A DNA stretch of 64,000 bases from an uncultured Lachnospiraceae bacterium. Lineage in GTDB: Bacteria; Bacillota; Clostridia; Lachnospirales; Lachnospiraceae. The stretch covers positions 1 through 64,000 of the forward strand of contig CANQNE010000002.1 of NCBI GenBank assembly GCA_947625135.1, given 5' to 3'. Within the stretch, counting starts at the first letter, position 1; each line of letters opens with the position of its first letter. This document shows, piece by piece, positions 1 to 499 of the stretch. A program made the translations under genes and the position numbers. The notes under the pieces are model-generated. The model was given only the letters and a program-made list of their open reading frames with translations. It was not told the origin of the DNA and ran no database searches.

Positions 1-224
1 TTTTCAATCTCCGATGTGTCAAAGGTATCATATCCCAGATCCACGGTAATGGCGTGGAGAGAGAAGGAGCGGGGATAAAACCGCATCAATCCGTGAAGGG
101 CGTACAGCATTGTGAGACTGTCCTTTCCGCCGGAAATCCCCACCGCGATTTTGTCACCGTCTGCGATCATCTGATAGTCGTCCACGGCTTTTCTTGTATA
201 ACTGAGCAGCTGCTGAAGCTTCAT
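1..224 (-). CDS. PP-loop ATPase, TtcA-type tRNA thiolation family (partial, N-terminal part)
   Basis: Only the first 74 codons are present; the gene runs off the left edge. The reading begins MKLQQLLSYTRKAVDDYQMI and contains the PP-loop ATP-binding signature SGGKDS at about residue 30, preceded by IAVGI. That arrangement is typical of TtcA/TilS-like ATPases that adenylate a tRNA base before sulfur insertion. The ATG follows a good Shine-Dalgarno sequence (AGGAGG, 11 bases upstream). Family membership in the PP-loop superfamily is firm. The exact substrate (2-thiocytidine-32 or another) cannot be judged without the CxxC region that lies outside the window. Confidence 0.85.
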   Translation of the reverse strand, partial: MKLQQLLSYTRKAVDDYQMIADGDKIAVGISGGKDSLTMLYALHGLMRFYPRSFSLHAITVDLGYDTFDTSEIE

Positions 225-412: not shown

Positions 413-441
413 TTGACAGAGATATGGATGCAGAGTAGTAT
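413..441 (+). promoter_or_regulatory. Sigma-A-type promoter for the xerS-like gene
   Basis: A perfect TTGACA -35 (413-418) is followed after 17 bases by TAGTAT (436-441) as the -10. A second AT-rich block, TATATA, overlaps just downstream. The only gene it can serve is the recombinase starting at 500. The rest of the 225-499 interval holds no ORF of note, apart from an A/T-rich stretch and the inverted repeat listed separately. Confidence 0.7.
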
Positions 442-449
442 ATAGGTAT

Positions 450-479
450 CACGTCGCAAAATTACAGTTTTACGACATG
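450..479. repeat. 30-bp imperfect inverted repeat, candidate dif-like (XerS) recombination site
   Basis: Two 14-base arms (450-463 and 466-479) match at 11 of 14 positions around a 2-base centre. The repeat lies between the promoter and the ribosome-binding site of the XerS-like recombinase. Read on the minus strand, its middle is AAAACTGTAATTTT (458-471). From memory, the streptococcal/lactococcal difSL site, also found next to xerS, has the core AAAACTATAATTTT, so only one base would differ. The alternative reading is an operator for autoregulation. The symmetry is seen directly; the dif assignment is inference. Confidence 0.5.
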
Positions 480-499
480 AAAGGAGAAAAACGAAAACG

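Follow-up and report, generated by a model that had tools for sequence, protein, structure and literature searches.

The 30-bp imperfect palindrome at positions 450-479 of the window, by which we mean the whole 64,000-nucleotide stretch analysed, is very likely a conserved chromosome dimer-resolution (dif) site for the neighbouring XerS-like recombinase, which is predicted to act alone. We favour this reading because the site is conserved, is linked to the recombinase gene and is unique in its genome at up to two mismatches, because GC skew flips at the equivalent position in several relatives, and because the classes of site agree with the clades of recombinase. In the mechanism that we propose, each arm of the palindrome would be bound by one of two recombinase subunits. 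When chromosomes have fused into a dimer, its two sites would meet at the division septum, probably through the action of FtsK, and an exchange of strands within the 6-bp centre would then set two monomers free.

The Lachnospiraceae include very common human gut bacteria. If the reading is correct, most of this family gains an identified dif site together with its recombinase, and draft genomes gain a precise landmark for the replication terminus and a defined single-copy locus for genetics. It would also provide a natural series of matched sites and tyrosine recombinases whose specificity shifts in step with the DNA arms. The literature pairing XerS or a dif site with Lachnospiraceae, mainly open-access, yielded no account of this system or of how the family separates its dimers.

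The palindrome and its neighbouring recombinase gene

The first base of the window is also that of contig C2 (97,638 bases), which belongs to a source genome of 2.29 Mb that consists of 75 contigs and is 97% complete. Positions 450-479 read CACGTCGCAAAATTACAGTTTTACGACATG, that is, CACGTCGCAAAA-TTACAG-TTTTACGACATG, in which two 12-nt arms flank a 6-nt centre and pair at 10 of 12 positions; adding T449 and A480 brings the pairing to 11 of 13. The middle of the site on the minus strand is AAAACTGTAATTTT, as stated in the initial annotation, which had also placed the palindrome between a promoter and a ribosome-binding site. The promoter-like hexamers with their 17-nt spacing, the AAAGGAG element and the 350-aa open reading frame confirm that placement (Table 1). 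The site ends 20 bp ahead of the recombinase start codon.

Table 1 Features of the window around the putative dif site
Feature	Position	Strand	Basis or remark
Divergent TtcA-like gene, N-terminal part	1..224	-	flanking marker for site rearrangement
-35-like hexamer TTGACA	413..418	+	similar element by eye ahead of the site in L007, L008, L073, L009
-10-like hexamer TAGTAT, 17 nt after TTGACA	436..441	+	site starts 8 nt later
dif-like site, class I arms (CATGTCGCAAAA type), 30-bp imperfect palindrome	450..479		sequence, conservation, uniqueness
Core matching GTCGYAAAA-N6-TTTTRCGAC without mismatch	453..476		likewise gene-adjacent sites in G100, G027, G073, G019
Ribosome-binding-site-like AAAGGAG	480..486	+	by eye
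XerS-like tyrosine recombinase, 350 aa	500..1552	+	ORF, family scores, alignment

As a bare palindrome the site is ordinary, with six places in the 64-kb window pairing at 11 or more of 13 positions at the same spacing (mean of 0.8 places over 50 shuffles that preserved base composition only). What lifts 450-479 above chance is its conservation beside the orthologous gene in relatives. Within the source genome it is the sole match to GTCGYAAAA-N6-TTTTRCGAC at up to two mismatches; at three mismatches, two more places match the pattern and 11 match the backwards control. A short segment of the window at 394-403, AAAACTGCAA, is complementary at 9 of 10 positions to 462-471 within the site; it lies upstream of the promoter and may be a half-site by chance.

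The recombinase contains a PF00589 domain (119.6 bits, cut-off 27.1). Its best NCBIfam match is XerS (NF003462), at 207 bits, which fails the cut-off of 267. Residues R198, K222, H294, R297, H320 and Y330, which correspond to the catalytic R-K-H-R-H-Y set of the family, are unvarying across 20 aligned recombinases, that of the window included. Counterparts at E ≤ 1e-30 were found in 110 of 120 Lachnospiraceae genomes, counting the source genome, and the gene is single copy in 108 of these 110. Across 391 genomes of the class Clostridia, we read from the list that 19 other families have matches above about 415 bits; below that score there is a gap down to about 300 bits, and the next score is 237 bits. 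A second group of XerS-like proteins, in families f5, f14 and f60, scores about 210-237 bits against profile A1.

Conservation, site classes and co-variation with the recombinase

In the nearest relatives (L007-L011), GTCGCAAAA-N6-TTTTACGAC lies 17-206 bp ahead of the gene. A combined pattern searched in 112 loci matched at zero or one mismatch in 56 (control, 0) and at up to two mismatches in 62 (control, 8). The sites fell into five classes: class I, the window type (CATGTCGCAAAA); class II, the commonest (CTATTCGYWAAA); class III (CTATACGACAAA / TTTTTCAAATAG); class IV (CTATCGGATAAA); and class V, from other families (CTATGCGCAAAA). Class I and class II sites are nearly symmetric, and class III sites are clearly asymmetric.

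The initial annotation had pointed to the xerS-like genes of relatives as the place to look for the same repeat, and the linkage is indeed conserved: the five patterns together gave a site in 93 of 133 family loci when up to three mismatches were allowed (reversed control, 0 of 133) and in 97 when up to five were (reversed control, 8), counts in which the consensuses were drawn partly from the loci counted, a bias that the reversed control corrects incompletely. L032 and L037 were dropped before counting as duplicates of G037 and G104, and species may recur across the two genome collections. Among the 80 family loci with at least 5 kb upstream, 69 had a site at up to five mismatches and 11 did not. 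Twenty loci picked from other Clostridia families gave 11 sites at up to three mismatches (control, 0) and 13 at up to five (control, 2), leaving seven without a site at the latter threshold. L077, L078, L080 and L143 are among the loci without a site.

Freer of this bias is a whole-genome search with TTCGYAAAA-N6-TTTTRCGAA, which at up to one mismatch matched in 31 of 120 genomes (control pattern, 12 of 120). The match lay within 12 kb of the XerS-like gene in 24 of those 31 genomes, 23 times upstream and once downstream, the latter in G105, where a class IV site lies closer to the gene. With GTCG arms at two mismatches, 37 of 120 genomes matched and the backwards control matched in more, so that only mismatch-free matches were kept. 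These occur in six genomes, beside the gene in five. The sixth, in G098 (L279, C29:194782-194805), is a class I type site, GTCGCAAAA-N6-TTTTGCGAC, which lies on another contig than the gene and shows no skew flip.

Overall, the site was upstream of the gene in 108 of 110 site-bearing loci, at distances of up to 8.8 kb, and downstream in two; 53 sites lay within 250 bp upstream and 55 farther upstream. In addition to a class II site nearer the XerS-like gene, one locus (L229, in G140) has, 3.2 kb ahead of that gene, a perfect palindrome, AAGGTTAACATAATATAATTATGTTAACCTT, whose half-sites resemble those of canonical dif.

The classes of site are mirrored in the recombinases. In a tree of 82 proteins, for which class II was subsampled and class IV and G019 were left out, the nine class I rows formed one recombinase clade (support 96/81) and so did the 18 class III rows (support 93/86). 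Twelve alignment columns, chosen by our own filter, separate class I from class II recombinases. Genome G019 has class I arms, yet its protein shows no more than 41-45% identity to those of class I. It shares four of the 12 class I columns exactly, a number also reached by the best of 90 other sequences; when K and R are pooled it shares six, and the best others share four. These comparisons suggest that arms and protein changed together twice. By aligned ranges, window residue R276 falls close to XerH K290, which is given as an arm contact in the available part of PMC5357621.

GC skew, the replication terminus and the gene leader

The strongest evidence that the palindrome is a dif site, and not a mere operator, is that the cumulative GC-skew maximum tracks the site over the gene. 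Where site and gene are more than 2.5 kb apart, the maximum is closer to the site in 13 of 15 loci. It falls within 50 bp of the site in four separated loci (L087, L094, L100, L113), and in L100 it is 1 bp from the site and 8.8 kb from the gene. L104 and L123, in which the maximum is closer to the gene, count against this, and the left arm of L082 has the wrong sign. Among 70 loci with a site and enough flank, whose stretches were cut around the gene, skew was higher on the left than on the right in 69, positive on the left in 67 and negative on the right in 60.

A skew extremum at this locus had been proposed as a check in the initial annotation, and in relatives it was found at or near the site in most loci. 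The maximum lies inside the XerS-like gene in G087 (400 kb), 0.3 kb from the gene in G037 (200 kb) and 4 kb away from it in G104 (400 kb); G027 shows no clear flip. In the closer relatives G073 and G100, for which the stretches were shorter, it is 3.3 and 2.3 kb from the site, respectively, with skew near zero to the right of the gene in G073. Within the window, skew is negative in all sixteen 4-kb steps, which matches the expectation for an arm replicated towards base 1, and the site is 450 bp from the contig end.

The position of dnaA was also considered. In G037, G048 and G087, each a single contig, and in G104, where contig C1 accounts for 3.59 of about 3.7 Mb, it lies about opposite the gene, at 0.47-0.49 of the chromosome. 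Among the 12 genomes checked, G064 (five contigs) was the only further one in which a single contig carries the two genes. The distance between them is about 0.4 Mb, or 18% of 2.2 Mb, which is a misfit with a terminus; the skew of G064 nonetheless changes sign at the site.

Sites away from the gene gave a mixed picture, with a skew flip in L284, L285 and L277 and none in L279, L280 and L283, in a comparison that left out L278, L281, L282, L286 and L287. The L284 site (G090), whose gene is on another contig, is within 40 bp of the skew maximum. Genome G078 holds two mismatch-free class II sites, L020 (C7:27608-27631) and L277 (C51:9697-9720); the latter, which is the one away from the gene, is no more than about 40 bp from the point at which GC skew peaks in its stretch.

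The placement of the site in the window raises the alternative that the palindrome is only an operator, through which the recombinase or another factor represses the gene, and has no role in recombination. In five of seven class I loci, namely the window and, by eye, L007, L008, L073 and L009, the site starts 8-13 nt past a -10-like hexamer, and nearly half of all sites are within 250 bp upstream of the gene. However, no such promoter is visible by eye ahead of the site in L010, L011 and G019, the remaining sites lie farther upstream or even downstream, and the skew maximum follows the site in most of the separated loci. We consider an operator without a recombination role improbable.

Repression and dimer resolution may nevertheless be combined in the window, as the initial annotation had suggested. 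A dif site there would sit at the predicted transcription start, where binding of the recombinase could repress its own gene. This leader placement is a trait of the window's lineage and autoregulation is not the general role of the site, since 57 of 110 sites lie outside the 250 bp ahead of the gene. The flanking gene, which we take to be TtcA-like from its SGGKDS motif, and the recombinase gene are divergently oriented in the window and in the five class I relatives where the former was found (seven searched), whereas in all five class II loci searched the TtcA-like gene is co-directional and lies between site and recombinase gene. From this difference in orientation, it was probably a local inversion that brought the site into the leader.

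A palindrome in a 5' leader would be transcribed and can fold as a stem, and it might thus act as an RNA hairpin of the recombinase gene. Yet its folding is no better than that of shuffled sequence (z -0.16; 86 of 200 shuffles fold equally well or better), and over half of the conserved copies lie elsewhere than in the 250 bp ahead of the gene, which makes a hairpin function highly improbable.

A tyrosine recombinase beside a palindromic core site also resembles a mobile element equipped with an integrase of its own, with the palindrome as its attachment site. Genome G005 (L270) offers a possible parallel. It has two XerS-like genes 3.8 kb apart (C2:103222-104235 and 107055-108098), with different palindromes nearby: a variant palindrome is ahead of the first gene, and a class II site is 3.6 kb upstream, at the skew maximum. 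This double-gene locus could be an element with its own recombinase and site. For the palindrome of the window, however, an attachment site is very hard to reconcile with a gene present in one copy in nearly all genomes that have it, with a location where skew flips in relatives and with a source genome that holds no second site at up to two mismatches, and we give this alternative very little credence.

Relation to known Xer/dif systems

XerC/XerD-dif resembles the system described here in its 6-bp centre and its tyrosine recombinases, and XerD (1a0p) is the best PDB sequence match of the window recombinase. The initial annotation had held that a canonical xerC/xerD plus dif pair elsewhere in the genome would speak against its reading, and a XerD is present. 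Protein L003 (contig C20) passes the XerD model (364 bits, cut-off 329.6), and its gene presumably adjoins a SpoIIM-like gene. In contrast, none of the ten Xer-like proteins of the source genome passes the XerC cut-off of 335, the best score of 296 being that of XerD itself. The best matches to canonical dif were at shuffle level in the window, which was the part of the source genome covered, and in the terminus regions of G087, G104 and G037, in a search with two queries. With the XerD of the source genome as query (E 1e-35), 69 of 120 family genomes had a match. At the thresholds used, 49 of 120 had the XerS-like gene without a XerD match, eight the reverse and two neither. Given a XerD without XerC in the source genome and the 51 of 120 genomes with no XerD match, XerD may serve another task where it is present. 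In the available part of a 2011 survey, canonical dif was predicted in 97 of 100 Firmicutes with XerCD (PMC3025954), which weighs against our reading, although any Lachnospiraceae among them are not evident in that part.

The source genome also has two sets of three adjacent tyrosine recombinase genes, on C73 (L004/L006) and C46 (L158); such recombinase triplets are known from mobile elements. In family f108, canonical-dif-like palindromes occur about 1 kb upstream of XerS-family genes in L247 and L249, with 10 and 6 mismatches, respectively, to a B. subtilis dif.

XerS/difSL shares with the window a single recombinase of about 350 aa, a gene-adjacent site and an AAAA/TTTT core, and the terminus position of difSL has been published (PMC2731167, PMC5357621; both as far as the available parts go). 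The initial annotation had assigned the locus to a system of this type. Its XerS-like recombinase, its dif-like site and their conserved linkage hold up, but the system is not XerS/difSL proper, as the score of 207 against 267 bits indicates. The difSL of L245, TTTCCGAAAAACTATAATTTTCTTGAAA, starts 79 bp ahead of its XerS-family gene, and its arms as given in the accessible text of PMC5357621, TTTCCGAAAA / TTTTCTTGAAA, differ from CATGTCGCAAAA / TTTTACGACATG in the window; clostridial arms have CATGTCGC or CTATTCGC where difSL has TTTCCG. The two half-sites of difSL are unequal, unlike the nearly symmetric class I and II sites. The cores of difSL and the window are identical at 13 of 14 positions, but the AAAAC..TTTT core is the least diagnostic part of the site, because its centre bases differ even among the nearest relatives and because the same 14 bases, AAAACTGTAATTTT, form the core of C. 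jejuni RM1221 difH (PMC2731167, Table 2). The match to difSL proposed in the initial annotation did not survive alignment of the arms. XerS-family proteins fall in a clade apart from the clostridial recombinases, on long branches; a sister relationship of the two in the tree was considered and set aside as unsure, since long branches meet there. Moreover, the source genome also encodes XerD, unlike the single-Xer genomes with XerS/difSL.

It could still be argued that a standard XerS/difSL module was gained from streptococci or lactococci. XerS is the best NCBIfam match, the site adjoins the gene, the core is nearly that of difSL, and xerS is found outside streptococci in Lactobacillus helveticus, according to the part of PMC3025954 available. 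Such a gain is quite unlikely in view of the sub-cut-off score, the presence of the gene throughout the family, the separate clade, long-branched as it is, and the different arms.

XerH/difH of Campylobacter and Helicobacter likewise combines a single recombinase, an often linked site and an AAAA-N6-TTTT core. The window recombinase matches XerH (5jjv) weakly, at 42.7 bits, the hosts of XerH belong to another phylum, and the difH arms, TTGAAAA / TTTTCAAA in Table 2 of PMC2731167, are unlike those of the window. Archaeal XerA/dif also pairs a single Xer recombinase with a dif-type site, as far as the available part of PMC5357621 describes it; the window recombinase scores 169.7 bits under the XerA model, for which the cut-off is 220.

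Set against these systems, a dif site with one XerS-like recombinase that is family-wide, and partly class-wide, would be new among single-recombinase Xer/dif systems; we infer its function from position, conservation and co-variation. A broader reading, which we advance tentatively and regard as falling just short of an even call, is that much of the Clostridia resolves chromosome dimers by a third, undescribed single-recombinase Xer/dif lineage. In that lineage the arms would have switched sequence on two or more occasions (CTATTCG to CATGTCG), with matching changes in the recombinase (residues K7, K40, I220, K265 and R276 of the window protein), and in the lineage of the window an inversion would have put dif at the transcription start as an autorepression switch. 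Such a lineage would stand apart from both XerS/difSL and XerH/difH.
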